A stretch of DNA of 64,000 nt, from NCBI RefSeq assembly GCF_003545715.1, contig NZ_QVNU01000004.1:1-64000 (forward strand). The letters are read 5' to 3'. Made by a program: the position numbers and the translations under genes. This stretch comes from Taibaiella koreensis. GTDB taxonomy: Bacteria; Bacteroidota; Bacteroidia; Chitinophagales; Chitinophagaceae. A model generated the notes under the pieces. It was not told where the DNA came from, made no database searches, and saw nothing but the letters and a program-made list of their open reading frames with translations. This document shows, piece after piece, positions 1 to 33,932 of this stretch (its first letter is position 1; every line of letters begins with the position of its first letter).

Positions 1-3000
1 GCACCGCAGGGTGTAGCGGGTGAGTTGTGTGTGGGTGGTGCCGGGCTGGCCAGGGGTTACCTGAATCGTCCGGAGCTCACGGCACAGCGGTTTATCGATC
101 ATCCTTACCATAAGGGGGAAAAACTATACAGAAGCGGCGACCTGGCCCGGATGCTGCCGGATGGGGATTTTGAATACCTGGGCCGGATCGACCACCAGGT
201 AAAGATCAGGGGCTTCAGGATAGAGCTGGGGGAAATAGAGAGTAAGCTGTTGCTGCATATGGCGGTCAAGGATGTGCTGGTCGTGGATCGTGAGGATGTC
301 TCCGGCGATAAATACTTGTGCGCTTATGTGGTGGCGGATGATAGCCTTACGGCCGCGCTGCTGCGTCAGCACCTGGCGGCTTTACTGCCCGGGTATATGG
401 TACCGGCTTTCTTCGTATTGATGGAAAGCTTCCCGCTTACGGCCAATGGCAAGATCGACCGCAGGAAATTACCACAGCCCGGGGCTTCGGAGTTGTCCGA
501 AGCGTTGTTTGAGGAACCGCAGACCGCCACAGAAAAGCTCTTAGCGGAGCTTTGGAAGCAGGTACTGAATGTACCCAGGGTCGGACGTAACGATAACTTC
601 TTCGAGCTCGGAGGACATTCCCTTAAAGCAGCGCGACTGGTGACCCTTATCCATAAACGCTTTCACGTGGGGATATCGCTCAAGCAGATCTTCACCCGGC
701 CCGATCTATCCGGCCTGGCGGAAAGTATACGGGTAAGCAGCCCTACCGCTTATCATACCATTGAACGAGCGCCGTTAAAAGAGGCGTATCCAGCCTCATC
801 CGCGGAAAAAAGACTGTTCATACTCGATCAGATCGATGGCCCCGGCATTTCCTACAATGTTCCCATTGTCTATGCCATCGAAGGCGATCTCGATCTGAAA
901 CGCCTGGTCCGGGCCATTCGCAGCATAGTTGACCGGCACGAGATCTTGCGCACCTCTTTTGCCGCCGGGAACGGGGAGATCGTACAAAGGATACAGGATA
1001 AACCTGACCTGGATATTGAGATCCACAACTGTGAGGAAGACAATATCCTGGATTTTATCCGGCAGTCCGTTCGCCCATTCGATCTTTCACAAGGACCCCT
1101 GTTAAGGGCAGGCCTGATCCGCACCCGCTCCGGGCAATATTTCCTGATGATCGATATGCATCACATCATTTCCGATGGTGTCTCTATCGACAATATGTTC
1201 CGTGAACTGGCTGCACTTTACCAAGGCGAAGTATTGCCGGAATTAAAGATCCAGTCCAAAGACTATGCCGTATGGCAACAACAATGGCTTCGATCGGCTG
1301 AGGCATCGATGCAGAAAGCGTTCTGGAAAGATCAATTTGCCGAAGAAACACAGTTGCTGAATATGCCGGTCGATTTTGTACGGCCGGCCACCAAATCCTA
1401 CGAAGGCGATCTCTTTAAATTTGCGATCCCGCAGCGGCTTACGCATACCATCAGGGATATCAGCAAGCGATCCGGGGCAACCCCCTTCATGGTGATCCTG
1501 GCTGCTTACAATATCCTGCTGGCCAAGTATAGCGGACAGGAAGACATCGTTATCGGTACGGCAGTGGCCGGGCGTTCTCATGCAGATGTACAGGAATTGA
1601 TCGGCATGTTCGTCAATACCCTGCCCCTGCGCAATTTCCCTGGACCGGAAAAACAATTCCTGGACTTCGTAACGGAAGTCAGGGATGGCTCCCTTAAGGC
1701 CATAGAAAACCAGGATTATCCTTTCGAAACCTTGCTGGACGACCTGGAGGTGAAACGGGACATGAGCCGTAATCCTTTATTCGATGTGATGCTTTCCTTC
1801 CGGGCCGGTCATCAGGAAGAAATTCCGTTTGCCGACCTTCTGCTGAGGGCGGTCCCCTTCCGGAATGACATTTCAAAAATGGACCTGTCGCTGGAAGTCA
1901 CTTCGGAAGATGGTGGCGACTGGCATGCCTGTATCGAGTATGCCACTAAACTATTTTCCAGGGAGACAATCAAAAGGCTTGCGGGACACTTCAATCATAT
2001 CTTGGAACAAATAGCCGCCGATCCGCTGATACAGCTAAAGAATATCGCGCTGATCACAGAAAAGGAAAAAGAACAGATTCTTCATTTCAATCATCCGGAG
2101 ATCCCAGGCGCCTGCCCGGCAATGGAATCGGCCTGCAATGTATACGACCTGTTTGCGGAAAAAGCAGCCCGCTACCCGGATCATATAGCTGTAGAAACAG
2201 AGAAGGAGGCGATTACTTACAAAGTACTGAATGAGAAAGTAAGCTACCTGGCAGCACTATTGATACAGCAGGGTTGCGGGGCCGACAAAATAATCGGATT
2301 GCATATCGATCGTTCCATAAATATGATTATCGGTGTACTGGCCACGCTTAAAGCCGGCGGCGCTTACCTGCCCATAGATGCCGAATATCCGCAAGGCCGT
2401 ATCCATTATATGCTTCAGGACAGCAATGCCCTGTTGGTGCTGACCCAAAGAAAGCTGGAGCATAACCTGGCGGTTGCGCCCAATAAGATATTCCTGGATG
2501 AGATCATCTGGCCGGAAGGGGAAACAGATACTTCGGCGCCGGCCAACAGTACTGCGGGTAACCTGGCTTATGTAATATATACTTCCGGCTCTACCGGTCA
2601 GCCCAAAGGGGTACAGATCGAGCACCGGTCGCTGTACAATTTCCTTTTGTCCAACGCTTGCAATTATCCTACAGGATTTGGTGTGGCAGATGTATGCCTG
2701 AGTATCTCGACGATCTCTTTTGACGTAAGTGTACTGGAAATATTTATGCCGCTGGTCAACGGCGCCAAATTGGTGATCGTAACCAGGGAGCACGCTTACG
2801 ATGTGCAAGCGCTGGCCAATGTGCTGGTCCATAAGAAGATCACATTCGGATACCTGCCGCTTTCTTTGTTGCAGCCGCTTTATCAGGTGCTCAAGGATCG
2901 TGCGCCCATTACGCTGAACAAGCTGGATGTAGGTGCGGAGTCGATCAAAGATACGATCCTGGAGAACTTCAACACGCTCAATAAAGACATGCGGATCCTC

Positions 3001-3933
3001 AATGGTTATGGTCCTACCGAAACGACCATAGCCTGCTCCTGGTACGCCTATCAGCCGGGCAATGCCAAGGGACAAAATGTATTGATCGGTAAACCCATGC
3101 ACAACACCCGTATCTACATCGTAAATGAGCAGATGCAATTGCAACCCCTGGGCGTGCCCGGCGAATTGTGTATTGCAGGAAGCGGGCTGGCCAGAGGATA
3201 CCTGAATAATCCAGGGTTGACTGCAGAAAAATTTGTCGATAATCCCTTTGAACCCGAAGGCAAACTCTATAAAACGGGCGACCTCACCAAATGGCAGGCT
3301 GACGGGAACATAGACTTTATTGGCCGGAAGGATCAGCAGGTAAAGATCAGGGGCTACAGGATCGAGTTGGGTGAGATAGAGAACAAGCTGATGGTGCACC
3401 CTGAAATAAAGCAGGCACTGGTGATCGACAAAACGGATCATAAAGGAAATAAGTATCTCTGCGCCTACCTGGTCGGCAATAAAGAAGTGAACCATGCCGT
3501 ATTGCGCACGCACCTGGCTTCGGAACTACCGGTATATATGATCCCTTCCTTTTTTATCGTACTGGGTCAATTCCCCTTAACGAAGAACGAAAAAATAGAC
3601 CGGAAAGCGCTTCCAGAGCCCGATACAGAGAAAAAGCAACTCCGGCAGGCCCTGGTACTGCCTGCAAACGCTACCGAAGCATCGCTCCTGCATATATGGG
3701 AAACCGTACTGGACTCGGCCGGCATCAGCGTTACCGACAACTTCTTTGAATTGGGCGGAAATAGCCTGAAGATCATTCATATGCTAGGACTGATCCAGCA
3801 ATCCTTTGACGATGCGCTCAAGGTCAGCGACCTGTTTGACAAACCTACCATACGGGAACAGGCGACCACTATTTCGAGCGGCGCCAAACCTGCAGCAGCG
3901 CAAAACAGGAAAGCAAAGAGAGTAGAATTTTAA
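1..3933 (+). CDS. Non-ribosomal peptide synthetase, 5' truncated: (A)-T-C-A-T
   Basis: The reading frame is open from base 1, so the true start lies upstream. The visible order is the end of an adenylation domain (A8 region near 180-240, A10 motif NGKIDRRKLPQP near 445-480), a carrier domain (FFELGGHSLKA, Ser near 617), a condensation domain (about 780-2080, intact HHIISDG near 1160), a second adenylation domain (about 2130-3600, core YTSGSTGQPKG near 2578) and a final carrier domain (FFELGGNSLKI near 3750). It ends after this carrier with no thioesterase, so the chain should pass on to the KS of the hybrid protein at 8649. By alignment to GrsA the full A domain reads DVLYDGGIAK, which I cannot assign to an amino acid; Asp at position 299 is unusual. 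No epimerase domain is seen. The first A domain's specificity residues lie outside the window. Confidence 0.95.
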   Translation, partial: APQGVAGELCVGGAGLARGYLNRPELTAQRFIDHPYHKGEKLYRSGDLARMLPDGDFEYLGRIDHQVKIRGFRIELGEIESKLLLHMAVKDVLVVDREDVSGDKYLCAYVVADDSLTAALLRQHLAALLPGYMVPAFFVLMESFPLTANGKIDRRKLPQPGASELSEALFEEPQTATEKLLAELWKQVLNVPRVGRNDNFFELGGHSLKAARLVTLIHKRFHVGISLKQIFTRPDLSGLAESIRVSSPTAYHTIERAPLKEAYPASSAEKRLFILDQIDGPGISYNVPIVYAIEGDLDLKRLVRAIRSIVDRHEILRTSFAAGNGEIVQRIQDKPDLDIEIHNCEEDNILDFIRQSVRPFDLSQGPLLRAGLIRTRSGQYFLMIDMHHIISDGVSIDNMFRELAALYQGEVLPELKIQSKDYAVWQQQWLRSAEASMQKAFWKDQFAEETQLLNMPVDFVRPATKSYEGDLFKFAIPQRLTHTIRDISKRSGATPFMVILAAYNILLAKYSGQEDIVIGTAVAGRSHADVQELIGMFVNTLPLRNFPGPEKQFLDFVTEVRDGSLKAIENQDYPFETLLDDLEVKRDMSRNPLFDVMLSFRAGHQEEIPFADLLLRAVPFRNDISKMDLSLEVTSEDGGDWHACIEYATKLFSRETIKRLAGHFNHILEQIAADPLIQLKNIALITEKEKEQILHFNHPEIPGACPAMESACNVYDLFAEKAARYPDHIAVETEKEAITYKVLNEKVSYLAALLIQQGCGADKIIGLHIDRSINMIIGVLATLKAGGAYLPIDAEYPQGRIHYMLQDSNALLVLTQRKLEHNLAVAPNKIFLDEIIWPEGETDTSAPANSTAGNLAYVIYTSGSTGQPKGVQIEHRSLYNFLLSNACNYPTGFGVADVCLSISTISFDVSVLEIFMPLVNGAKLVIVTREHAYDVQALANVLVHKKITFGYLPLSLLQPLYQVLKDRAPITLNKLDVGAESIKDTILENFNTLNKDMRILNGYGPTETTIACSWYAYQPGNAKGQNVLIGKPMHNTRIYIVNEQMQLQPLGVPGELCIAGSGLARGYLNNPGLTAEKFVDNPFEPEGKLYKTGDLTKWQADGNIDFIGRKDQQVKIRGYRIELGEIENKLMVHPEIKQALVIDKTDHKGNKYLCAYLVGNKEVNHAVLRTHLASELPVYMIPSFFIVLGQFPLTKNEKIDRKALPEPDTEKKQLRQALVLPANATEASLLHIWETVLDSAGISVTDNFFELGGNSLKIIHMLGLIQQSFDDALKVSDLFDKPTIREQATTISSGAKPAAAQNRKAKRVEF

Positions 3934-3956: not shown

Positions 3957-4802
3957 ATGACCATTAAAAATGTTGCTGTAATAGGCGCCGGCGTTATGGG
4001 CCAGGGTGTCGCCTATCAGTTTGCCAAATATGACTATGATATTACCCTGGTCGATATTTCGGAGGAAATCCTGGAAAATGCCCAAAAGAATATTCGCAAT
4101 ATAGAACGATTGGATAAGCTCCTGCACAAATCCACAAGCAAGGTAAATGCACTGGATAAAATAAGTTGCACCACCAATCTTAACGCAGTAAGCGGCGCCG
4201 ATTTTATTATTGAAAATGTAACGGAGCACATACCGCTCAAAGAAACGCTTTATCAAGAGCTCAAAGATATTGTTCCAGATAAGGCTTTGCTGGCAGTCAA
4301 TACTTCAGCAGTCTCCATTACCAGGTTGGCGTCCTTTTTAAAGCATCCGCAGCAGGTGATGGGCATTCACTTTATGAACCCCGTTCATCTGAAGCCTACT
4401 GTAGAGGTAATCCGTGGCTATCATACCACACCGCAAACGATCGATACTACCCTGGAACTATTGCGTAGCGTACAGATGTCGGGCGTCGTGGTCAACGATT
4501 ACCCGGGCTTTATCTCCAACCGCGTGCTGATGCTTACGGTTAACGAAGCCATTTTTGCGCTACAGGATGGCGTAGCTACCGTCCCGGATATCGACAAGAT
4601 ATTCAAAGAATGTTTTGGCCATAAAATGGGGCCTTTGGAGACTGCAGACCTCATCGGATTGGATACTATTCTCTATACACTGGATGTACTCTTTGACAGC
4701 TATAACGACACCAAATTCAGGCCCGCGCCCCTGCTTAAAAAAATGGTAGACGCCGGTCTGCACGGCAGAAAAAACGGGGAAGGATTCTACAAGTACAATT
4801 AA
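3957..4802 (+). CDS. 3-hydroxyacyl-CoA dehydrogenase-like enzyme, FkbK type (hydroxymalonyl-ACP pathway)
   Basis: A 281-residue dehydrogenase with an N-terminal Rossmann nucleotide-binding motif (VIGAGVMGQGVA, residues about 7-18), a catalytic-type His in GIHFMNPVH, and the C-terminal helical 3HCDH domain (from about residue 180, YPGFISNRVL). In methoxymalonyl- and hydroxymalonyl-ACP pathways (FK520 FkbK, zwittermicin ZmaG) such an enzyme oxidises the glyceryl C3 hydroxyl while the unit is held on a carrier protein. The assignment rests on company: the ACP, acyl-CoA dehydrogenase and FkbH-like genes all follow within 4 kb. It starts 23 bp after the NRPS stop, so cotranscription is likely. Taken alone it could be a fatty-acid hydroxybutyryl-CoA dehydrogenase, but the context argues against that. 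Confidence 0.88.
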   Translation: MTIKNVAVIGAGVMGQGVAYQFAKYDYDITLVDISEEILENAQKNIRNIERLDKLLHKSTSKVNALDKISCTTNLNAVSGADFIIENVTEHIPLKETLYQELKDIVPDKALLAVNTSAVSITRLASFLKHPQQVMGIHFMNPVHLKPTVEVIRGYHTTPQTIDTTLELLRSVQMSGVVVNDYPGFISNRVLMLTVNEAIFALQDGVATVPDIDKIFKECFGHKMGPLETADLIGLDTILYTLDVLFDSYNDTKFRPAPLLKKMVDAGLHGRKNGEGFYKYN

Positions 4803-4810
4803 AACGATAT

Positions 4811-4946
4811 GATTATCCCGATACAGGAAATAAATACCCACCGGCCCTTGAGCTTTGTCGAAAGGACAATAGTAAATGGTGCTTCGACAAGCTCAGCAAC
4901 CATAAAGGAGATGGATAAGCTCAATGTTTCCTATATCGGGATAGCC
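4811..4946. repeat. Nested palindromic repeat, copy 1
   Basis: Intergenic element between the FkbK-like gene and the ACP gene. The outer arms are at about 4813-4832 and 4925-4944 (right arm TGTTTCCTATATCGGGATAG; left arm its reverse complement with about 3 mismatches). The inner arms carry the motif TTGAGC(T)TTGTCGAAAGG at 4846-4865 and GCTTCGACAAGCTCAGCAAC at 4881-4900. The same architecture recurs at 7400-7533 (same orientation) and 33804-33932 (opposite orientation). It has no coding capacity. It resembles REP- or MITE-type non-autonomous elements; no mobilising gene is present here. Confidence 0.85.
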
Positions 4947-5001: not shown

Positions 5002-5259
5002 ATGGAAGTCACCACCCAACCAGACACTAAAGTTATTATTAAAGAATTTCTGCAAAAACGCATTGGACAGGATATTTCCTTCACCGACGAAGAGGACATT
5101 TTCAAACTAGGATTAGTAAACTCCTTATTTGCTTTAGAATTGGTCGTATTCCTGGAAACCACCTTTAAGATTTCCATAGAAAATGAGGATCTGAACTTAG
5201 AAAATTTCAGCACCGTGAATAACCTGGGCGCCTTCATCCTTAAAAAGAAGGACCGATAG
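5002..5259 (+). CDS. Free-standing acyl carrier protein, FkbJ/ZmaD type
   Basis: An 85-residue acidic carrier protein. The attachment serine for phosphopantetheine sits in LVNSLFALEL (about residues 35-44), the NSL variant of the usual DSL motif. Free ACPs of this kind carry the glyceryl unit made by an FkbH-like protein while it is oxidised to hydroxymalonyl-ACP. The stop is 3 bp before the acyl-CoA dehydrogenase start, so the two are translated as a unit. An alternative role as a general D-alanyl or fatty-acid carrier is less likely given the neighbours. Confidence 0.88.
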   Translation: MEVTTQPDTKVIIKEFLQKRIGQDISFTDEEDIFKLGLVNSLFALELVVFLETTFKISIENEDLNLENFSTVNNLGAFILKKKDR

Positions 5260-5262
5260 ACC

Positions 5263-6411
5263 ATGAACCTGGAATTAACAGCCGATCAAAAAGCGTTCCG
5301 CGAAGAATGCCGGCACTTTGCCCAGACGGCTTTACAGCCTTATGCCAACGATTACGACAAGCAGGGCGCTATACCCAGGGAGCTCATCGGACAACTAGCC
5401 GCGCAAGGTTACCTGGGCGTCACGATCCCGGCGGAGTATGGAGGACGAGGTATGGACCAGGTGTCTTACGGGATATTGAACGAAGCCATAGGAAGAGCCT
5501 GCTCTTCTACCCGGAGCCTGATCACGGTCCACTCTTCGCTTACGGCAGAAACAATCCTGCGCTGGGGAACAAAAGAACAGAAGGATAAATGGTTGCCGTT
5601 ACTGGCTCAAGGGACCAAACTGGCCGCCTTTGGTCTATCGGAACCAGGAGCCGGCAGCGACACCAGCAATATCCAAACGGCTTACCAGAAACAGGCCGAT
5701 GGCTTTCTGTTAAATGGTGTGAAGAAGTGGATCACTTTCGCACAGATAGCCGACTTGTATGTCATCGTAGCCCGTGGCGCAAACGGCATAACAGCATTCC
5801 TGGTGGAACGGAATACCCCGGGGCTCCGGATACAGCCACTGGACGGCATCCTGGGCACCAGGGCTTCCCTGCTGGCCGAGATCCATCTAACGGATTGTTT
5901 GATTCCGGCAGAGAATGTACTGGGAAGAGAAGGCTGGGGATTGCAGCAGATCGTCAATACCGCTTTGGACAATGGCAGGTATAGTGTTGCCTGCGGCTCC
6001 CTGGGCATTGCCCGTGCCTGCCTGGAAGACAGCATTCAATATACCAGGAACCGTAACCTGTTTGGCAGCCTGCTCAAAGACCATCAGCTCACCAAACAAA
6101 AGATCACGAATATGGTGACTGAGGTAAAAGCAGCCAGCCTGCTTTGTCTGAATGCCGGCTACCTGCGGGATAAAAAAGATCCGGATAGCATTATACAGAC
6201 CACCCTGGCAAAGTATTACGCCTCACGGATCGCTAACACCATCGCCTCCGACGCCGTACAGTTGCATGGTGCGATGGGCTGCCACGACAGCCTTTCGATA
6301 CAACGCTATTTCCGCGATGCGAAAGTGATGGAGATCATCGAAGGTTCCACCGAAATACAACAAATACTGATCGCCGACCATAGTGTCGCCAGTTTAAGCT
6401 CAATTTTATAA
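5263..6411 (+). CDS. Acyl-CoA/acyl-ACP dehydrogenase, FkbI type
   Basis: A 382-residue flavoprotein of the acyl-CoA dehydrogenase family at full length. The N-terminal helical domain is followed by the flavin-contacting FGLSEPGAGSD stretch (about residues 127-137) and WITFAQIAD, and the C-terminal domain ends with IIEGSTEIQQILI, where the catalytic-type Glu of the family lies. In hydroxymalonyl-ACP formation the FkbI/ZmaE-like enzyme carries out the second oxidation of the carrier-bound C3 unit. It is placed 3 bp after the ACP and 6 bp before the KAS III-like gene. There is no beta-oxidation thiolase or hydratase nearby, which favours the biosynthetic role. Confidence 0.88.
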   Translation: MNLELTADQKAFREECRHFAQTALQPYANDYDKQGAIPRELIGQLAAQGYLGVTIPAEYGGRGMDQVSYGILNEAIGRACSSTRSLITVHSSLTAETILRWGTKEQKDKWLPLLAQGTKLAAFGLSEPGAGSDTSNIQTAYQKQADGFLLNGVKKWITFAQIADLYVIVARGANGITAFLVERNTPGLRIQPLDGILGTRASLLAEIHLTDCLIPAENVLGREGWGLQQIVNTALDNGRYSVACGSLGIARACLEDSIQYTRNRNLFGSLLKDHQLTKQKITNMVTEVKAASLLCLNAGYLRDKKDPDSIIQTTLAKYYASRIANTIASDAVQLHGAMGCHDSLSIQRYFRDAKVMEIIEGSTEIQQILIADHSVASLSSIL

Positions 6412-6417
6412 CCGATC

Positions 6418-7386
6418 ATGATAGGCATTCAATCTATAAAGACATACACACCCGGAGCCCCGGTAGCCGTGCTCGACCTTGCGGAAAAAGAAACGCTGAA
6501 CGAAAGTGAGCTGGCCTATTTTACGACCTGTGGCGTCAATACCATTTACGATTCCGGCGAGATCACCAGCTACGACCTGGCAAAAGGAGCGAGCGAAAAG
6601 CTTTTGCAGGAAACAGGAACAGAAGCGAACAGTATAGACCTCATTATTTACTTACAAAGCCGGATGCCGGAGCATTTCATCAGCTCAGAGGCTACCCGTT
6701 TACAGCACGATTTGAAAGCGCATCAGGCACTTAGCTTTGCCATTTCCAACCTGGGCTGCGCCGATAGCTCTATGGCCCTTAAGCTGGCCAAAGATTTCCT
6801 GACGGCCAACCGCAAAGCCAATCATGTGCTGATCTGTTATGGGAATAAGGTTTTTTCCAACTACAGGTTCCGGAACCCCGTTACCATTATGGGCGATGGT
6901 GGCGTTGCCGCCCTCATCAGCAAAACGGCGGATCATCAACTTACCGATATACAGATCCAGACCAATGGCCATTATTGGGACCTGTTCAAACTGGAGTACC
7001 GGGACAAAAGCGCCGATCAATATAAAGAAATCTGCAGCGACATTCGTAAATATGGTTTTGAGCTGGCGATCGAAAGTAAGAACAGGTTTAAGGAGATCAA
7101 CGATGCCATATTGAACCGCAATGCTCTTTCCAAGCAGGATATCAGCCATTTTTTGTTGCAGAACATCTCTTCCCGCGCTTATGAATATTATCAATCTGCC
7201 TTCGATATCCAGATATCCCCGATCTGCGCCATGAACCTGGCACAATACGGGCACCTGGGCGCGGGAGATGTTTTTCTGAATTACCAAACCGGCATGGAAT
7301 CAGGCATTTTTCAGAAAGGTGAAAAAATACTGATGATGAACAATAGTCCGGTTGCGGCCTGGAGCACCATGCTTATTGAAGTATAA
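6418..7386 (+). CDS. KAS III-like protein with altered triad (Cys-Gln-His); possible acyltransferase
   Basis: 322 residues with a thiolase-fold, FabH-like layout. The nucleophile Cys is kept (C114 in NLGCADSS). The two residues that drive decarboxylative condensation in FabH (His244 and Asn274) align with Gln248 (HFLLQNIS) and His279 (QYGHLGAGD); the spacings of 134 and 31 residues match FabH's 132 and 30. KAS III homologues with altered triads are known that only move acyl groups (CerJ, ChlB3). It sits 6 bp behind the extender-unit dehydrogenase. I infer a transfer role, possibly moving the extender unit from the free ACP to the hybrid module; a condensing or starter role is not excluded. 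Confidence 0.75.
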   Translation: MIGIQSIKTYTPGAPVAVLDLAEKETLNESELAYFTTCGVNTIYDSGEITSYDLAKGASEKLLQETGTEANSIDLIIYLQSRMPEHFISSEATRLQHDLKAHQALSFAISNLGCADSSMALKLAKDFLTANRKANHVLICYGNKVFSNYRFRNPVTIMGDGGVAALISKTADHQLTDIQIQTNGHYWDLFKLEYRDKSADQYKEICSDIRKYGFELAIESKNRFKEINDAILNRNALSKQDISHFLLQNISSRAYEYYQSAFDIQISPICAMNLAQYGHLGAGDVFLNYQTGMESGIFQKGEKILMMNNSPVAAWSTMLIEV

Positions 7387-7399
7387 AAAAATGAAGCGA

Positions 7400-7533
7400 T
7401 TACCATAATATAGGAAATAACGCTCGCCGGTCCTTGAGCCTGTCGAAAGGACAGCGTCGAAGTGTTGCTTCGACAAGCTCAGCAACCGTGGTGCAAACAA
7501 GCAGACCCACTGTTTCCTATATCGAGATAGTCA
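7400..7533. repeat. Nested palindromic repeat, copy 2
   Basis: Second copy of the element at 4811-4946, same orientation, in the gap between the KAS III-like gene and the FkbH-like gene. The right outer arm TGTTTCCTATATCGAGATAG is at 7511-7530. The left arm near 7400-7419 is less well kept. The inner arms are CCTTGAGCCTGTCGAAAGG (7432-7450) and GCTTCGACAAGCTCAGCAAC (about 7467-7487). The two copies bracket the ACP, acyl-CoA dehydrogenase and KAS III-like genes. Confidence 0.85.
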
Positions 7534-7550
7534 GAAAAAAATCAAACACA

Positions 7551-8621
7551 ATGGAACATACATTCAGCCAGATAGAAAGCGATCTTAAAGAAAAAAAACA
7601 AAAGAAGGTCATCAAATGCGTAGTATGGGACCTGGACGATACCATCTGGCAGGGCGTCTTGCTGGAGAACGACCAGTTGGTCTTACGCGAAGGTATCGTT
7701 GATATTTTAAAAACACTCGACAGTTGGGGCATCATCAATTCGATAGCCAGCAAGAATAATTATGATGATGCGATCCGGATGCTGGAGCGATTCGGAATCA
7801 GGGAATATTTTCTTTACCCGCAGATCCATTGGGACCTGAAATCCAACTCCATTCAAAAAATAAAGGAAAAGCTGAACATCGGCATGGATGCGATCGCCTT
7901 CATTGACGACCAGCCTTTTGAAAGAGATGAAGTCGCCTTCGTACACGAACAGGTTAATTGCCTGGATGTGGGCAGCATCGGACAGGTGCTGGAGTGGTTC
8001 AAGCCCCGCTTTATCACGGAAGAATCTTCGCTGAGAAGAAAAATGTACCTCGATGACGAAGTGCGGCACCAGGAAGAACAGGAAATCGGCAACAACAGGA
8101 AATTTCTGGAATCGCTTGCGTTAACCTTCTCCATACAAGCCGCTACTGTCAACGATCTGCAAAGAGTAGAAGAGCTCACCTTACGGACCAACCAGCTGAA
8201 TGCTACCGGCTATTCTTATACCTACGAAGAACTGGAAGCCCTGATACAGTCGCCGGATCATCATCTTTTCGTAGCAGAGCTTATCGACAAATATGGTTCT
8301 TATGGCAAGATCGGCGTTGCCATGGTGGAATGCAATCCGCAGACCTGGACCTTAAAGCTATTGCTCATGTCCTGCCGGGTCATGTCCCGTGGCGTAGGTG
8401 GCGTATTGCTGAATTATATCATGAACCTCGCCAGGCAGAAAGGTTGCACGCTACAAGCCGAATTCCTGCCCACAGACCGGAACCGGCTGATGTACGTGAC
8501 CTACAAATTTGCCGGGTTTACAGAAGCCGGTCAGCTGACTAACGGCGGCGTGCTGCTCAGCCATTCCTTGGCGGAGGAAGTACCTTACGCCGAGTACATT
8601 AATCTTTCCTTACCCGAATAA
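7551..8621 (+). CDS. FkbH-like glyceryl-transferring HAD protein
   Basis: 356 residues. The N-terminal HAD domain carries the signature WDLDDT (Asp27, Asp29), followed by a GNAT-like C-terminal half (about residues 190-340). FkbH-type proteins take the phosphoglyceryl group of 1,3-bisphosphoglycerate, remove the phosphate and load glyceryl onto an ACP, the first step of methoxymalonyl/hydroxymalonyl-ACP synthesis. I chose ATG 7551 because an in-frame extension to 7434 would run through the palindromic repeat. No FkbG-like O-methyltransferase is seen, so hydroxymalonyl rather than methoxymalonyl is the likely unit unless the methylase lies outside the window. It is followed 27 bp later by the PKS gene. 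Confidence 0.9.
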   Translation: MEHTFSQIESDLKEKKQKKVIKCVVWDLDDTIWQGVLLENDQLVLREGIVDILKTLDSWGIINSIASKNNYDDAIRMLERFGIREYFLYPQIHWDLKSNSIQKIKEKLNIGMDAIAFIDDQPFERDEVAFVHEQVNCLDVGSIGQVLEWFKPRFITEESSLRRKMYLDDEVRHQEEQEIGNNRKFLESLALTFSIQAATVNDLQRVEELTLRTNQLNATGYSYTYEELEALIQSPDHHLFVAELIDKYGSYGKIGVAMVECNPQTWTLKLLLMSCRVMSRGVGGVLLNYIMNLARQKGCTLQAEFLPTDRNRLMYVTYKFAGFTEAGQLTNGGVLLSHSLAEEVPYAEYINLSLPE

Positions 8622-8648: not shown

Positions 8649-11600
8649 ATGAAAGACATTGCAATTATAGGCATAGCGGGCAGGTTCCCCGAAGCCGACG
8701 ATCTGAAGGCGTTTCGTCATAACCTGGTAGCAGGTAAGGACTGCGTACGGCCGTTCTCCTTTGAGCGGAAGTCTGCGACGACCTTAGCCCTGGATAAAGA
8801 ATTTATGGAGATCGGCTATATGGAAGATATCGATAAGTTCGACCATAGATTTTTCAATATTTCCAAAGCGGAAGCTGAATATATGGACCCGCACCAGCGC
8901 ATACTGATGGAGGTAGTGTATGAAACCATCGAAAGCGCCGGCTATAATGTCGATTTTTTTAATGGCAGCGAAACGGCTGTCTTTATTGGCGATACGGAAC
9001 AGAAATACGGGCGGCTGGCCGATCGCTTCGACCCTACGCTCTTAACGGGTACAACCGATGCCACAACCGCCGGACGCATTGCCCGTTTCTTTAATTTACG
9101 GGGCAATGCCGCTATGGTGGATACGGCCTGTTCCTCTTCGCTGCTGGCCATCCATATGGCCTGTAACGAACTGCTCATAGGCGATGCCGATTATGCGCTT
9201 GCAGCGGGCGTTCGTTTTATCCTCTTCCCCGCGGAAAAGAATACGGGCGCCGACTTGGGTATCATGTCGAAGGATGGCAGGACGCGTAGCTTTTCTGCCA
9301 AAGCAGAAGGTTCCGGTGCGGGTGAAGCGGTAGGCTGTGTGCTTCTGAAGCCGCTGGACAAAGCCATAGCCGATAAGGACATCGTTTACGCAGTGATTAA
9401 AGGAACAGCCGCCAACCAGGATGCACAATTATCCGGCAGCCTTACAGCGCCCAGCAGTCAGGCGCAAGCCGAAGTCATTCGGAAGACCTGGTCCAAAGGG
9501 GGAATAGATCCGACTACAGTCTCCTATATCGAGGCACATGGCAGTGGCACCAAGCTTGGAGACCCGATCGAAATTGCCGGTATGGACCTGGCTTTTAAAG
9601 ACCTGACCGACAAGAAACACTTTTGTGCCGTCTCTTCTATCAAAAGCAATATCGGTCATACCGGTAGTGCGGCCGGTATATCGGGGTTGATCAAAGCAGT
9701 GCTCTCTCTGCAACACAAGGAACTTTACCCCAGCGTCCATTTCGATCAGCCCAATCCTTTTATTGCTTTTAAACAGTCTGCCACCTATGTCAACGCAGCG
9801 TATAAAGCCTGGGAAGCGCCCTATCCCAGAAGAGCGGGTGTAAGCTCTTTCGGTTTGAGCGGCACCAATTGTCATGTATTGTTGGAAGAGACGCCACAAG
9901 TTGCAGAGACGGCCCCTGTTCAAGGTAGCTTCCTTTTTAATTTTTCGGCCAGGACAGAAGCCAGCCTGGACGCTTACCTCGATCGCTTTGCAACCTATCT
10001 TTCGGCCTTGGAAAACCCTGCGATGGCCAACATCAGCTATACCCTGAATGCCGGCCGAAAGCATTACCAGCACCGGGTTTCTTTAATAGCAGCCACTAAA
10101 GAAGAGCTATTGCAGAAAATAAAAGGTTCCAGGATGGGTGCCCACCAGGAAGCGGTTAAAAAAATCATTTTCCTTTTTTCCGGCGATGCGCTGGTGAGTG
10201 ATGATTTCCTCCGGACTATGACCAAAGAACTGCCGGAGTTAAGCAAGTATACAGAAGCCTGCGCTGCGTATTACGATAAATCCGGTGCAGCAATAAATCG
10301 CTTCGTGCTGCAATATGCCTTGTATCATTATTGGGAAGAAAAAGGGTTGACTACAGAACATCTTTTAGGGATAGGCAGCGGCGACCTGGTCGTAGCAGTA
10401 GCGCTGAAAGAAATGTCCCTGGAAGAAGCCATGGCACAATGTGCTGCTGAAGAAACCATCGATCCGGACCTGGATCAGAAGCTAAGGAGACTGATCGCCA
10501 GGGAAACAGAGGAAGGCCGGGCGTTGTTTATAGAATTAGGACCGGAAGCTTGCTTGTCCAAAGGATTGAGGACCTTGAATTACCCGGACCAGGAAGCGCT
10601 CTATGGTGTCGTTTCGATAAAGCAATCCCCCCTGGAAATCATAGAGGCTTTGTATCTGGCCCAATATTCTATCGATTGGGAAAAATATTACCATGCTGCG
10701 GATCACCGGAAAGTAAGCCTTCCCGCCTACCCTTTTGAAAAGGTACGTTGCTGGCTGAAAGAACCTTTGCGGCAGGAAGATTTCTCGGTCGCCAATAGCA
10801 ACGAAGACAAAGCCGCATTACCCGATCCCATAGCCCAAACAGCGCAGGAGCCAGGATCGGAGCACCTTAAGGCAATCGTACAGGATAGCTGGTCGGCGAT
10901 GGAGCAGAAAATTGCCGGCATATGGATAAATGTATTGAAGCTGGAAGCGCTCACGCTCGACGATGATTTCTTCAGGCTGGGCGGACATTCTTTGATGGCC
11001 ACGAAAGTGATCGCTACCATTGAAAAAGGATTCGGGATAAAGCTTGTCTTTAAAGACATTTTCACTTTGGCTACCGTCAGGTCCCTGGCAAAAGGTGTCG
11101 AAGGCTTGCTCGCCAGCGGTGATCAGCAGGCCGTTTATCAAGCTATAGTACCGGCCCCGATACAAGATGACTATCCCCTTTCAGAAGCGCAACTACGCCT
11201 CTGGCTGATCCATCAGTCCAATGAACGGTCGGTGGCCTATAATCTGCCGACGGTACTGTTACTGGAGGGTAAACTAGATATCCCCAGACTGGAAAGGGCC
11301 TTCAGCGCCTTATGTGAGCGACACGAAAGCCTGCGAACGAGCTTTCATGAAAGGAATGCACAACCGGTACAAGTAATCCACCCCGCAATCGACTTCTCGA
11401 TCCAGGAGCTCGTTGCCGATAGAGATCCGGCAAGCCTCCTGCGTACTTTCCTCCGGCCCTTCGATCTGAGGCAGCCGCCCTTGTTGCGTGTGGGTTTGGC
11501 GGAGCAGGAAACCGATAAGCATCTTTTGTTTTTCGACATGCACCATATCATCTCCGACGGTGTATCGCTGGCGGTACTCATATCGGAGCTGGTGAAGCTA

Positions 11601-12491
11601 TACCATGGTGAAACATTGGAGCCCCTGGCCATACAATACAAAGACTTCGTGCTTTGGCAGCAGGGGCTATTTGACAGCGGCCTGATGCAGCAACAGGAAA
11701 ATTTCTGGCTGCAGCAATTTCCAGATCAGCCGCCGGTGCTGCAATTGCGTACCGATCAGCCAAGGCCTGCCATACAATCTTTTGAGGGAGACAAATTATT
11801 ATTTGACCTCTCGGGCGACCAGGTGCAGCAAATACAAGCGATGGCAGCCACCACTGGTACCACGCCTTTTATGGTCCTGCTCGCCGTCTTCAAAGTATTG
11901 CTGCATAAATATACTGGGCAGGAGGATATCGTTATCGGATCGCCCATCGCCGGCCGCGCTCACAACGATCTCGACAAAGTGATCGGTATGTTCGTCAACA
12001 CCCTTTTACTCAGGACCCGTCCCGCCAGGGAAAAAACGTTTATACAGTTTTTGCAGGAAGTGAAAGAACATACCCTCAATGCTTACGACAACCAGGATTA
12101 CCCCTTCGCGTTGCTTGTCGATAAGCTAAACGGCAAAAAGGACCCCTCCCGCAATCCCTTGTTTGATGTAATCTTCGTATTACAAAACCTGAAGATGCCT
12201 AAGATGCAGCTGGAAGACATCGCGGTATCGCCCTATCCCATACATACCGGCACGGCCCAGTTTGACCTGATCATGGAGATCAGCGAGGGTAAGGATCGCT
12301 GGCCTGTAAAGCTGGAATACAATACCGCCCTTTTCGAAGAAGAGACTTTATTGCTCATGAAAGAACGATTCCTGGCCTTATTGCAGGACATACTGGGCAA
12401 CCCCGAAAAAAGCATCCAGCAATTGTCCTTTAAGATTGCTGCAGAAGTTCTGGAAGACAACAATGACCTGGACTTCGCCTTTAATTTTTAA
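8649..12491 (+). CDS. Hybrid PKS/NRPS: KS-(degenerate AT)-T-C
   Basis: 1280 residues. The KS domain (1 to about 420) has a complete triad: Cys161 in DTACSSS, His297 in EAHGSGT, His337 in NIGHTG. It is followed by an AT-like remnant (about 506-635): the usual FLFPGQG start reads FLFSGDA, and GHSxGE reads GIGSGD, so Ile575 and Gly576 replace the His and catalytic Ser. Only about 125 residues separate this start from the closing FIELGPEA motif, against roughly 260-280 in working ATs. The post-AT linker (LPAYPFEKVRCWL), a carrier domain (FFRLGGHSLMA, about 775-785) and a full condensation domain with HHIISDG follow. There is no KR, DH or MT domain, so a beta-keto product is expected. Extender loading must come from elsewhere. 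Confidence 0.93.
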   Translation: MKDIAIIGIAGRFPEADDLKAFRHNLVAGKDCVRPFSFERKSATTLALDKEFMEIGYMEDIDKFDHRFFNISKAEAEYMDPHQRILMEVVYETIESAGYNVDFFNGSETAVFIGDTEQKYGRLADRFDPTLLTGTTDATTAGRIARFFNLRGNAAMVDTACSSSLLAIHMACNELLIGDADYALAAGVRFILFPAEKNTGADLGIMSKDGRTRSFSAKAEGSGAGEAVGCVLLKPLDKAIADKDIVYAVIKGTAANQDAQLSGSLTAPSSQAQAEVIRKTWSKGGIDPTTVSYIEAHGSGTKLGDPIEIAGMDLAFKDLTDKKHFCAVSSIKSNIGHTGSAAGISGLIKAVLSLQHKELYPSVHFDQPNPFIAFKQSATYVNAAYKAWEAPYPRRAGVSSFGLSGTNCHVLLEETPQVAETAPVQGSFLFNFSARTEASLDAYLDRFATYLSALENPAMANISYTLNAGRKHYQHRVSLIAATKEELLQKIKGSRMGAHQEAVKKIIFLFSGDALVSDDFLRTMTKELPELSKYTEACAAYYDKSGAAINRFVLQYALYHYWEEKGLTTEHLLGIGSGDLVVAVALKEMSLEEAMAQCAAEETIDPDLDQKLRRLIARETEEGRALFIELGPEACLSKGLRTLNYPDQEALYGVVSIKQSPLEIIEALYLAQYSIDWEKYYHAADHRKVSLPAYPFEKVRCWLKEPLRQEDFSVANSNEDKAALPDPIAQTAQEPGSEHLKAIVQDSWSAMEQKIAGIWINVLKLEALTLDDDFFRLGGHSLMATKVIATIEKGFGIKLVFKDIFTLATVRSLAKGVEGLLASGDQQAVYQAIVPAPIQDDYPLSEAQLRLWLIHQSNERSVAYNLPTVLLLEGKLDIPRLERAFSALCERHESLRTSFHERNAQPVQVIHPAIDFSIQELVADRDPASLLRTFLRPFDLRQPPLLRVGLAEQETDKHLLFFDMHHIISDGVSLAVLISELVKLYHGETLEPLAIQYKDFVLWQQGLFDSGLMQQQENFWLQQFPDQPPVLQLRTDQPRPAIQSFEGDKLLFDLSGDQVQQIQAMAATTGTTPFMVLLAVFKVLLHKYTGQEDIVIGSPIAGRAHNDLDKVIGMFVNTLLLRTRPAREKTFIQFLQEVKEHTLNAYDNQDYPFALLVDKLNGKKDPSRNPLFDVIFVLQNLKMPKMQLEDIAVSPYPIHTGTAQFDLIMEISEGKDRWPVKLEYNTALFEEETLLLMKERFLALLQDILGNPEKSIQQLSFKIAAEVLEDNNDLDFAFNF

Positions 12492-12539: not shown

Positions 12540-15500
12540 ATGACTCATTCCCTTCAACATAAAATTGCGCTGGAATACTGGCTGGAAAAAGCGGAACGTT
12601 TCGAACCGATTGACATCCCTGCAATCCGGGAGCTCAAAAGCACAGACGGCCGAGGTCTGCAAGTGTTCCCGTTCCCTGAAGCAATAGCAACCTCATTGAA
12701 AGAGCGTTGCAACAATAAAGATGCAGGTATCTATACTTTTGCTGCAACAGCGCTATTCCTGTTGCTTCATAAATATACCCATCAGCACGACCTCTTGCTG
12801 ACCGGACTGCCTTTCGCTGCTCCTACTGATGAGGACGACATGGGTGCACCAGTCTTTTTAGCCTTATCCGTGCAACGGCATACCGATGTAAAAACACTGC
12901 TGACCTCTTTACAAAAAGAAATGCAGGAGGCCTACCATCACCGCAATTATTCCTTTCAGAAGTTTGAGGAAAAAGTAAAAGCACGGCAAGGAAACGGCAC
13001 GTCGCTATTCCCTTTTACCTTCTCTTATCCTCCTTTCACCCGGGAACATACTGTCAGCGGGCAATCGAAACTCGCTTTCGCCCTACATCAAACCGGCGCC
13101 TCTTTCCAGTTGGAGATCGACCACTCCGGTCATTATGCTGGCTGGTTTATCAAGCAACTGGGTTGTCATTTCATCCATATACTTCAGTTCATTATCCGGA
13201 ACCCTACGGCAACAGTCGCTGAAATACCGCTTCTGTCTGAAGAGGAAAGGCAACAGATTATTGAATCGTTCAACGATACGGAGGTTGCCTTTGCAGACAA
13301 AGACAGGAGTATCCTGGCATTATTCGAACAGCAGGTGAAGGAGACCCCGCATCAGCCCGCAGTTCAGTTCGGATCAAATGTCCTTTCTTACCTGGAGGTA
13401 CAGCAAAAGGCTCTGAAACTAGGCGCTTTGCTAAGGAAGCGTGGTATTGGCCGCCATGATATAGTGGCTTTGATCTGCCCGCGTTCGGAACATATGATCA
13501 CGGGCATGATGGGTATCTTAAAAGCCGGCGCTGCCTACCTGCCCATCGATGCCGATCAACCTGATGACCGTATCCGCCATATCCTGGAAGATAGTGCCGC
13601 CAAGCTTATCCTGACCACAAAGGCTATTCACTCAGGACAACAGGGGCTCTTCAGCGGTTACGAAAACCAGGTCATCACAATTGATGAAACAGAAACGGAA
13701 CCCGGCCTGAAAGATTTCGAAACGAAACATGGCGCCGACGACCCCGCCTATGTCATCTATACATCCGGCTCTACCGGAAAACCAAAAGGCGTAGGCGTTA
13801 TTCAAAGTAGTTTTACCAATTTTATACTCGCCTATAAAACCTTATTCAAAAAGGGATTCGATACCTCAGACCGCGTGCTGGCGGTTTCCAACATTTCCTT
13901 TGATGCCAGTATTGCCGAAATATTTGTGGCATTGACCAGCGGTGCTACGCTCGTCATACTGGATAAAGAACGGCTTCTGGATACGGCGAAACTGGCTACC
14001 TTTCTTAAAAAAGAAGACATTACCTACGCTTATATCCCGCCTGTCCTGTTAAGCGATCTTTATACACAACTGAGACAATCGGGCCCGTCCACCCGCTTAC
14101 GGAAGTTGCTTGTCGGCGTGGAAGCAATCAAGGATACCTTGCTTTATGACTATAGCAACCTGATCGACGGCCTGGATATCATTAATGCTTATGGCCCCAC
14201 GGAAACTACCGTTATAGCCAGCGCCCTTAACTACAGACCGGAAGCCCCCACAAGTGAAAATGCATCGATAGGCAAGCCTATGGCCAACTGCAGGATCTAT
14301 ATCCTGAACGATTACGGGGAACCGGCACCCCTGGGCGTAGCCGGTGAGCTCTGTATCGCCGGCGCCGGCGTATCGCCCGGCTACCTGAATAACGAAGCGC
14401 TGACGGATGCCAAATTTGTACCCGACCCTTTCCGGGAAGAAGGGAAAATGTATCGTTCGGGCGACCTTGCCCGATGGACGCCTGAGGGTAATATTATGTT
14501 TATCGGCCGGAAGGATAACCAGGTAAAGATCCGGGGATACCGGATCGAGTTGGGAGAGATTGAATCTGTATTGCGCAATCATTCCGGCATTAAAGAAGCG
14601 GTAGTTTGTGCCTTTGAAGAGGATATGGGCAGCAAATATCTCTGTGCCTACTTCGTACCCGCAACTGAAATAGCAGTAGCTGACGTGCGTACTTATCTTG
14701 AAGCGCAGTTGCCGGAATATATGATCCCTTCCCGGTTTATGCCCCTGGACAAGATCCCCATCACGGCCAACGGAAAGACCGACCGGAACAAATTGCCCCA
14801 ACCCGGAACACAGGAACGGATGCTGATAGCAGAAGACCTGCCTTCCAACGGCCTGGAAGAAAAGTTGCTTGTCCTATGGAAAGGTCTGCTGAATCTGCCA
14901 CGGATCAGTGTGCAAGACAGCTTTTTCGAGTTGGGCGGACATTCCCTCAAAGCAGCGAAACTAATAGGCTTTATTCTGCGGGACTTTCTCGTGGAAATGC
15001 CGTTAAGAGAAGTATTCGCCCGCAAATCCATTAAAAATATAGCGGCCTATATTCAAAACGCGGAAACTTCCGGTTCCTTTGAAATTCCGGTAGCACCAGC
15101 TGCGGCCTATTATCCCGCCGCCTTTTCCCAAATAGGTATTTACCTGAGTTACCTGATCAACAAGGAAGCCGTCAATTTCAATATGCCTACGCTTCTGGCG
15201 ACAGAAGGCCCTATCGATATTCCCAGGTTAGCGCTTGCCTTTAAAACGATCATCAAACGACACAGTACCTTGCGGACAAGCTTCTGTTTCCGGGACGAAG
15301 CGATTATGCAACAGATCGAAGAAGAAGTACCCTTTTCCATAACATTGCTGGAAGGGGAAGCATTTGCCACGGAAGAAGCGCACCAAGCCCTCATACGTCC
15401 CTTTGATTTAAGCCATCCGCCACTGCTGAGGGTTAACTTTATCAGGAAGGATGAAGATAACGGCATCTTGTTCATCGACATGCACCATATTATCTCTGAT

Positions 15501-18500
15501 GGCGTATCTATAGATGTCTTCATCAAAGAAATCATGAAATGCTACCATGGCGAGGGCCTGCCCGATCTTAAAATACAGTATAAAGACTATACGGTATGGT
15601 TAGATCATTATAGGGCAAGCAGCGCTTATAGCGTACACAAAAAATACTGGCTCGATATTTTCGCCGATAAGCCGAAAGCATTGGACCTGCCGATAGACTA
15701 TCCGCGTACTGTTGAAAAAAAACTGGATGGCGATGTCTGTACCGTGAAGATCGACAAAGAAACGGTTTCCCGGTTGAAGGAATTGATCTCGGAACAGGAA
15801 AGTACCTTTTTTATCCTGATGATGGCCGCCTTCCAGTTGCTGCTGGCCAGGTATACGGGCAGGAAAGATATTACCGTGGGTACTTCCGCCGAAGGCCGCA
15901 TTCATCCCGACCTCGACCCGCTCATCGGTATGTTTGTACATACACTGCCGATCAGGACTTTGATAAAGGAACAACAAACGTTCAGGGAACTGATGGACGA
16001 GGTGAAAAATGTTTTCTTCGGGGCCCTGGACCATCAGCTTTACCCGCTGGAAGAATTAATAGAACAACTGGAATTAACCCGGGACAGGAACCGGAACCCC
16101 CTTTTTGACACCCTATTCTCTTACCAGAATGTAGACATACAGAAGCTCCAGATAAAAGAAGTCGGCCTCAAGCCGCTACACCTGAAGGATGCCAGTATAA
16201 AATTCGATCTTTCCGTCAGTGTCATGGAATCGAATGAAGTGCTTTGGGTTACCTTCCATTATTCCCTCCATTTATTCAAGCAATCGACCATAGGGCAAAT
16301 GGCGGAATGCTATATCGCCATGATAAAAGCCATATCGCAGTCGCCCGATATGCTGCTCCAGGAGCTGCTTGACGATCCCGCTCTAAATATCCCGGGGGCT
16401 AAGCAGCAGGAGCGCTTGCTCACGGAGGGAGAACGGCAATGGCTCGAAAAGGCTGGAAGTTGTCCGGGTGAAAAAGCGACGAAGACGATCATCGACTTAC
16501 TGGAGGAGCAGGTACAGCAAAAGCCGGACCACATCGCTATCCTTTTTAAAGATAAGGCCATTACCTATGCCGAGCTGGACCGGCAAACGGATGCCATAGC
16601 TGCGTCACTCCAAAAACTGGGTATAGGTGCCGAGGGTATTGTGGGGATTATCGCGGAACGCTCCGAATGGATGGTCATCGGTCTTATCGGCACATTAAAA
16701 GCCGGTGCTGCCTATTTGCCGATAGACCCCGGATACCCCAGGGAAAGAATTGATTATTTGCTCAACGACAGCAAGGTGGCGATCCTGTTGACAGATGCCG
16801 CTTTGCAGCAGGATTATCCCGGTGCAGTCAGTTTTGAAGAAGTGGCTGCCGGTACGGCCAAACCTGAAAAAAGAACGATAGCGCCCGACCAACTCGCTTA
16901 TGTGATCTATACTTCCGGGACCACAGGAAGACCCAAAGGTGTGATGATGGAACATCAGGCGTTGAATAATATAGCCGGCGCCTGGCGCAAAGCCTATCAC
17001 CTGGACCGGTTTGAGCCCTGCCTGCTCCAGATGGCAAGCTTTGCATTTGACGTCTTTACCGGCGATGTTATCCGTACCCTGACCAGCGGAGGACGCATGG
17101 TGATCTGTCCCGCCGAAACCCGCCTGGAAGTAAATGCCCTATATGAGCTCATCCGGACCTATCAGATCAATATCCTTGAATCCACGCCTGCGCTGGTATT
17201 GCCGCTTATGGACTATGCTTATGAGCAGGGCAAAGACCTGAGTTGCTTAAAACTATTGATCCTGGGTTCGGACAGTTGCCTGAGCGCTCATTTCAGCAGG
17301 CTGATGGAAAGGTATGCACCCGGCATCAGGATCGTCAATAGCTATGGTGTTACGGAAACCTGCATCGATGCCGGATTTTACGAAACAACACTCGATGCCC
17401 TGCCTTCTTCCGGCAATACACCTATAGGCAAGCCTTTGGCGAATTATACCTATTACGTTTGTGACGAGCAACAACAACTCGTGCCTATCGGCATTGCCGG
17501 AGAATTATGGATCGGAGGCGCAGGCGTTGCCAGGGGCTATCTGAACCAGCCCCGGCTAACGGCCGAAAGATTCATGCAACATCCGCATAACGGCGAGCGG
17601 GTGTATAAAACCGGCGACCTCGTGCGCTGGCTTCCCGATGGCAATCTCGAATTCATAGGGCGCAATGACGACCAGGTAAAGTTGCGGGGCTACAGGATAG
17701 AGCTACAGGAGATCGAAAACATCCTCTCGGAAGAAGAACAGATAAAAGAAGTTGCCGTTACCGTGTATGAGGATAAAGGCGAGCAGGACCTGGTCTGCTG
17801 GTACACAAGCCAATCGGGACTTGCCCTTGATGGCCTGAGGGCCTCCCTGAAACAGCGACTTCCGGAGCATATGATCCCAGGCCATTTTATACTGCTGAAC
17901 AAATTACCCATTAGTCCCAATGGTAAGATAGACAAGAAAGCATTGCCCGATCTGCAGGAGTTGATGGACAAGACAACCAGGGCCATCGACCCGCCGGAGA
18001 CCGAAACAGAGGCCCGGCTATTGCTGATCTGGCAGGATATTTTAAAGAGAACCCATATCGGTGTGCTAGATAACTTCTTCGAAATGGGGGGACAATCCCT
18101 GAGGGCTATGGTCCTGGTATCCCGCATACAAAAGTTCTTCTCTTTAGATATCGCCCTTAAAGATGTCTTTAGCCACCCGACTATAAGAACGCTGGCTGCC
18201 TACCTGGGTACTGCGGGCACCAACCAATTCGTCCCCATCGTCCCTATTGCGCAACAGGATCATTACCCGCTTTCTTCCGCTCAAAAAAGACTTTTTGTAA
18301 TCAGTCATTTCAAAGGTGCGGAGACGAGCTATAATATGTATTCGGCTTTCTGGATCGACGGAGCGTTGGATATTCAAAAGCTGGAAACAGCCTTTCAGCA
18401 ATTGATCGACAGGCATGAAAGCCTGAGGACCGCCTTTGTCATGATCCACGATGAGCCTGTCCAGGTTATACGAAAGCAGATCGACTTTCAGCTGAAACGA

Positions 18501-33803: not shown

Positions 33804-33932
33804 TGACTATCCGGATATAGGAAACAAGATATAATTTGCTTCCATTAACGGTTGCTGAGCTTGTCGAAGCACCATCGTTGTCCTTTCGACAAGCTCAAGG
33901 ACCGCCTTTGTTTCCTATATCCGGATACTCAG
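33804..33932. repeat. Nested palindromic repeat, copy 3 (inverted)
   Basis: The best preserved copy. Outer arms are CTATCCGGATATAGGAAACA (33806-33825) and its near-perfect complement ending near 33928; inner arms are GGTTGCTGAGCTTGTCGAAG (33850-33869) and CCTTTCGACAAGCTCAAGG (33882-33900). The order of the inner arms is reversed relative to copies 1 and 2, so it lies in the opposite orientation. Confidence 0.88.

Follow-up and report, generated by a model that had tools for sequence, protein, structure and literature searches.

The locus described here raises the question of how an extender unit reaches the carrier domain of a KS module whose acyltransferase (AT) is dead. The window, that is, the whole stretch of DNA analysed, comprises 64,000 nucleotides of Taibaiella koreensis (assembly GCF_003545715.1, contig NZ_QVNU01000004.1, positions 1-64,000, forward strand; C18 among the contigs of the host genome). 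An earlier note on this DNA had proposed that a KAS III-like protein, encoded among genes that make a carrier-bound C3 unit, takes the place of the AT. It is suggested here, from residues, domains and gene neighbourhoods, that this protein probably does take the extender unit from a free ACP and deliver it to the T domain of the module, and would thus represent a trans-acting, non-homologous replacement of the AT.

Organisation of the cluster

The genes lie in the order HCDH, ACP, ACAD, KAS III, FkbH, a KS-(remnant)-T-C protein and an NRPS with thioesterase. The window begins at the contig end, so that the NRPS upstream of them is incomplete. The features, with their Pfam or NCBIfam matches, are as follows.

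1-3933, +, upstream NRPS, truncated at the contig end (last part of A-T-C-A-T)
3957-4802, +, 3-hydroxyacyl-CoA dehydrogenase homologue, HCDH (Pfam 3HCDH_N, 1.3e-54)
5002-5259, +, stand-alone ACP, proposed donor carrier (Pfam PP-binding, 4.3e-6)
5263-6411, +, acyl-CoA dehydrogenase homologue, ACAD (Pfam Acyl-CoA_dh_1, 6.5e-42)
6418-7386, +, KAS III-like protein, proposed trans-acting extender-unit acyltransferase, with Cys114, His279 and Asp284
7551-8621, +, FkbH-like protein (NCBIfam FkbH, 257 bits against a cut-off of 146.7)
8652-10112, +, KS domain, active-site Cys and both His kept
10122-10814, +, remnant of a degenerate AT (pseudo-AT) that has lost its catalytic Ser and the His motif
10893-11108, +, T (carrier) domain of the AT-less module, proposed acceptor (Pfam PP-binding, 2.3e-14)
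11163-12428, +, condensation domain ending the KS protein (Pfam, 4.3e-121)
12540-22058, +, NRPS ending in a thioesterase, with matches to three A, three T and three C domains

The embedding of the KAS III gene among genes for a carrier-bound C3 unit was borne out by Pfam and NCBIfam, which identify its neighbours as HCDH, ACP, ACAD and FkbH. The hydroxymalonyl-ACP of known clusters is proposed to arise through FkbH together with two dehydrogenases (PMC7489565). By analogy, the FkbH-like protein would form glyceryl-ACP, HCDH could carry out one oxidation of it and ACAD the other; through the three enzymes the free ACP, whose Ser41 is invariant (motif GLVxSLFALE, alignment of five sequences), would come to carry an oxidised C3 unit. 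The unit is most likely hydroxymalonyl, because no O-methyltransferase is encoded between 3957 and 8621.

The FkbH reading frame is open from a TTG at 7434, and the ATG at 7551 is the likelier start because one copy of a genomic repeat, GCTTCGACAAGCTCAGC, lies between the two. This repeat occurs in exact form at window positions 4881-4897, 7467-7483 and 33854-33870, so that two operon gaps hold copies, and it is found 28 times in the genome as against 0 times for its reversed control. As regards the downstream NRPS, its start (12540-13230) resembles the C-terminal half of a condensation domain and comes immediately behind the complete domain with which the KS protein terminates; three Bacteroidota relatives also align from the first residue of this half domain.

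Relatives of the KAS III-like protein

Relatives of the protein are found in Chitinophaga, Taibaiella, Streptomyces and Saccharothrix. Eight came from a collection of genome contigs, namely Taibaiella chishuiensis (87% identity), Chitinophaga vietnamensis (78%), C. solisilvae (72%), four Streptomyces (38-39%) and Saccharothrix carnea (35%). Another is encoded on a Streptomyces californicus plasmid (38%; one of two near-identical records was used), and in the Streptomycetaceae a match was present in 23 of 345 genomes, two of which were already among the eight. The family set holds 31 sequences, the window's own included. No relative other than the protein itself was detected in 147 genomes of the host family (E 1e-20) or in 395 genomes of the host phylum (E 1e-18), each sample being drawn from a larger group, and it is therefore rare in both.

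Phylogenetic analysis (62 rows) placed the 31 sequences in one clade with support of 100/99. A branch with support of 99/98 parts FabH from the 31 together with CerJ, ChlB3, DpsC and the Streptomyces paralogues L051, L057 and L132. The clade is separate from CerJ and ChlB3 although it lies on the same side of this branch, in a tree that is midpoint-rooted and drew long-branch warnings. The paralogues are those of 30 loci given for 54 places, plus L132, and five short fragments of these 31 (L043, L044, L049, L053 and L054) were left out.

The active site

The protein of 322 aa is a KAS III homologue. Its membership of this fold family is indicated by Pfam (ACP_syn_III_C, E 2.8e-9) and by the thiolase fold of its predicted structure (pTM 0.83), and its score of 80.5 bits with the NCBIfam fabH model TIGR00747 lies far below the cut-off of 292.1. 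The best PDB match has an E value of 1.2e-10. In a fold search with the predicted model, FabH, DpsC, ChlB3, CerJ and others rank close together; the modelled fold would appear to say KAS III/thiolase only and not to decide the function of the protein.

Alignment to FabH agreed with the residue assignments made earlier, in which the Cys is kept as Cys114 and the His and Asn correspond to Gln248 and His279. The Cys-Gln-His triad that had been drawn from them has to be abandoned, as position 248 varies and is thus not a fixed catalytic residue: it is Gln in 29 of the 31 sequences, His in S. netropsis and Pro in genome G637. The FabH His is in this way replaced in 30 of 31, and the FabH Asn is His in every one. 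Cys114, His279 and Asp284, on the other hand, are invariant throughout the 31. A profile of the C-terminal region (eight sequences) has ChlB3 as its best PDB match (E 6.8e-6), and the GHLGAGD of the family aligns on GHLGASD of ChlB3, so that His279 and Asp284 occupy the positions of ChlB3 His296 and Asp301. The same motif reads GHVGAGD in CerJ, GHLGGGD in DpsC and GNTSAAS in two FabH proteins. According to PMC9573744, the active site of ChlB3 is Cys113-His296-Asp301, CerJ has the same site and DpsC has Ser-His-His; the FabH-type His (PHMG) is kept in DpsC and absent in CerJ and ChlB3. Because three residues are invariant while Gln248 varies, and because they match ChlB3, the triad should read Cys-His-Asp (Cys114-His279-Asp284), the His and Asp lying five apart in all 31 proteins as they do in CerJ and ChlB3. 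On these residues the family would resemble the KAS III-like acyltransferases and not the condensing FabH, and with the FabH His/Asn pair gone it should transfer rather than decarboxylate.

It might be argued that the protein is nevertheless a condensing enzyme, joining the C3 unit to the chain in the manner of the tetronate FabH-like proteins. The combination of a FabH-like protein, FkbH and an ACP is indeed that of tetronate pathways (PMC7489565), and S. netropsis retains His at position 248. The replacement of the FabH pair across nearly the whole family speaks against such a role, however, as do the presence of ACAD and HCDH and of a KS with intact Cys-His-His in the same operon, and we regard it as highly improbable.

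The degenerate AT

The earlier description of the module as having lost its AT holds in that Pfam finds no AT in the KS-T-C protein and the catalytic motifs are gone, but the domain is not simply missing, as a remnant of about 230 aa has been kept. Between KS and T the sequence reads FLFSGDA and LLGIGSGDL at the AT positions of GQG and GHSxG, and with the second replacement the catalytic Ser and the His preceding it are gone. When linker and remnant are modelled together (pTM 0.77), the fold obtained matches those of KS-AT didomains and of ATs such as ZmaA-AT, and one may speculate that the remnant has a docking role as a platform for KAS III. The KS keeps Cys-His-His in all ten modules compared. 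With a donor ACP and an acceptor T domain present and the AT dead, a transferase is wanting, and KAS III is the candidate because no other gene of the set is without a role and because its residues are those of KAS III-like acyltransferases.

Co-occurrence with AT-less modules

HCDH, ACP, ACAD and FkbH are all present at 26 of the 31 KAS III loci, and three of the four at another four. Among the latter, L010 is incomplete through being cut by the contig, no HCDH was found in the stretches read of G708 and no FkbH in those of G657, and the ACAD of Saccharothrix carnea (L015 3660-3960) is an in-frame remnant made up of parts near its two ends, which looks internally deleted. At G637 (L098 6432-7391) the stretches read around the KAS III contain neither extender genes nor a KS, and the KAS III itself departs from the family at the usually conserved SPVAAW and at Gln248, as if it were decaying.

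A KS module is in view at 29 of the 31 loci, the exceptions being G637 and the 10-kb contig of G789. The predicted co-occurrence with AT-dead KS modules was found without exception, the module being AT-less at all 29, and its T domain is seen in 28, the other being cut by a contig end. There are four AT-less architectures: KS-pAT-T-C, KS-T-reductase (G743 and G565), KS-KR-T-C (G657) and KS-KR-MT-T-C-A (G858). In the G743 module about 165 residues lie between KS and T, with no match to the AT remnant. The open frame of G858 (L101 5007-19001), beside the KAS III set, exceeds 4600 aa and contains three KS domains together with KR and MT domains and NRPS parts, with no AT match, representing a larger AT-less line. 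At the S. californicus locus the extender unit may differ, as there is, some 5 kb ahead of KAS III, a gene whose annotation is class I SAM-dependent methyltransferase.

Control loci were the 20 best places, outside the KAS III loci, of an FkbH ranking for which a 40-residue N-terminal FkbH piece served as query. HCDH, ACP, ACAD and FkbH are present at all 20 and this KAS III, at 80 bits, at none. Thirteen have a KS with AT (148-310 bits) and T, and every one of these 13 shows GHSxGE or GYSxGE. Six more (L133, L135, L136, L137, L139 and L141), which are alike and probably constitute one lineage, have a dead AT in a KS protein without T domain, and at L132 no KS was found within 20 kb. Among the loci with a KS, therefore, modules are AT-less wherever KAS III is present (29/29) and T-bearing modules stand beside an AT where it is absent (13/13). 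Fisher's test gives a p of 4e-11, or of 1e-7 with the six T-less loci counted against the pattern, values which are too small since the loci are related. Together with the acyltransferase-type residues, the contrast between 29 of 29 AT-less modules and 13 of 20 AT-bearing controls supports the idea that KAS III could act as a stand-in for the AT.

Two of the control loci have features of their own. L132 encodes, beside its FkbH-ACAD-ACP-HCDH set, a DpsC/CerJ-like KAS III with Ser at the nucleophile position (15077-16084, minus strand). At L135 (770-7619) the NRPS before the KS-dead-AT protein has a luciferase-like monooxygenase inside an A domain.

In the six T-less control loci the KS may take the unit from free hydroxymalonyl-ACP. 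Having a KS with dead AT, no T domain and no KAS III of this kind, they suggest a different explanation for the KAS III loci also, namely that the KS there takes hydroxymalonyl straight from the free ACP and that KAS III, like CerJ, forms an ester or has some other group as its substrate. We consider this very unlikely, given that the modules at KAS III loci do keep a T domain of their own, apart from the one that is cut, and that in an unsystematic look no acceptor-making gene common to the Bacteroidota and Streptomyces loci was noticed.

Acyltransferases elsewhere in the genomes

An AT HMM was built from 20 AT domains, five of which lack a plain GHSxG. With it, no match of at least 20 bits was obtained in the stretches scanned for the 31 KAS III loci, and nothing in these stretches speaks for an AT concealed beside KAS III. 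The claim that no ordinary AT gene is in view is upheld for the first 30 kb of the window, and a discrete AT in the cluster, which had been named as one of the findings that would refute the proposal, is absent as far as the cluster is sequenced, the contig breaking off at the upstream side. Pfam detects two ATs in the host genome; both are encoded on contig C10 and none on C18. One of them, an AT-ER-like protein of 755 aa (L003 1480-3744), seems by eye to consist of an AT followed by an enoyl reductase of the PfaD type, an arrangement of trans-AT systems. Whole-genome Pfam searches of the first ten genomes or records, some of whose contigs are short (17 and 57 kb), showed no AT on the cluster contig in seven, and in the remaining three the nearest AT is 47, 96 and 540 kb off; for the 21 later genomes the AT search covered the fetched stretches around the KAS III loci. 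Across the entire sequenced genome of S. bikiniensis a single AT was found, probably FabD, since about 0.9 kb separate it from a FabH-type KAS III match.

These results bear on the most serious among ALTERNATIVES, according to which the module receives its unit from CoA through a discrete AT encoded at another place (AT-ER-like or FabD), and KAS III has a different function, for example the hydrolysis of wrong units off carriers. The two ATs of the host would be available for such loading, and ChlB3 hydrolyses acyl-SNAC thioesters (PMC9573744). It is also favoured by the control loci L138 and L144, each of which, against the pattern described above, carries besides its AT module an extra KS-KR-T protein that lacks an AT, with no KAS III of this kind at the locus. 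Yet S. bikiniensis would have only its probable FabD to draw upon, and the ACP-bound unit made by a conserved gene set would go unused. An editing role, moreover, need not track AT loss, whereas every module in view at the KAS III loci is AT-less. Loading from CoA is on balance unlikely.

Proposed mechanism and its meaning

Transfer by KAS III, the reading preferred here, would begin with the acceptance of the unit as a thioester by Cys114, activated by His279-Asp284, to give a Cys114-hydroxymalonyl intermediate. KAS III would pass the unit on to the T domain of the KS module with the dead AT, and the KS, with its Cys-His-His, would then condense it with the growing chain. What is observed at these loci is the set of genes, the dead AT, the invariant Cys-His-Asp and their co-occurrence; the reaction, the identity of the unit and the direction of transfer are what we infer for these genes. 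As the module has no KR, the product would be expected to carry an alpha-hydroxy-beta-keto unit.

To our knowledge, extender choice in polyketide synthases has been treated as the business of AT-fold enzymes. There is perhaps an even chance that the loci form a class of assembly lines, spread over Bacteroidota and Actinomycetota, whose extender loading has passed from the AT to a thiolase-fold KAS III that uses an ACP-bound unit. In most of this class the dead AT would have been kept, perhaps as a platform for KAS III, and it would have been nearly or wholly lost in a subclade with reductase-ending modules. If this is true, extender loading would have a second solution in the form of an enzyme that differs in fold from the AT and accepts ACP-bound units, AT-less modules of this kind would become correctly readable in genomes, and a possible new tool for feeding unusual extender units into modules would be at hand.

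Comparison with known systems

The trans-AT polyketide synthases also have AT-less KS modules that are loaded in trans, and the KS module without functional AT found here is of that type. In those systems the loader is an AT homologue. No discrete AT is present here in the first 30 kb of the window or in the stretches of the other 30 loci, and the proposed loader differs in being a thiolase-fold KAS III fed by an ACP. The reaction itself has a counterpart in zwittermicin A, where ZmaA-AT takes hydroxymalonyl from a free ACP and places it on a second one, as predicted here (PMC4207774); ZmaA-AT is, however, a true AT domain, acts in cis and has another fold. Foxicin was also considered and set aside, as its modules have ATs.

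The tetronate proteins Mad16 and AbyA1 are similar in that a FabH-like protein works with FkbH and an ACP. They condense glyceryl-ACP with the chain (PMC7489565), whereas the loci described here have ACAD, HCDH and a separate intact KS, and the condensing residues of their KAS III are changed.

ChlB3 (chlorothricin) and CerJ (cervimycin) share the KAS III fold and the Cys-His-Asp site, with His for the FabH Asn, Asp five residues on and the first FabH His absent, although in the fold comparison they are only 17-19% and 14% identical, respectively, to the protein from Taibaiella. ChlB3 moves its acyl group to a discrete ACP (PMC9573744). The known KAS III-like acyltransferases differ in what they carry and where, the cargo being either 6-methylsalicyl, which goes to an ACP, or malonyl, which goes to a sugar. 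In the open-access literature, judged by titles and the starts of abstracts and with most subscription journals lying outside it, we found no report of a KAS III loading extender units, nor of a KAS III-like acyltransferase doing so on a module without its AT. A KAS III-like acyltransferase is an enzyme of known kind, and it is the job of extender loading proposed for it that is new as far as this literature goes.
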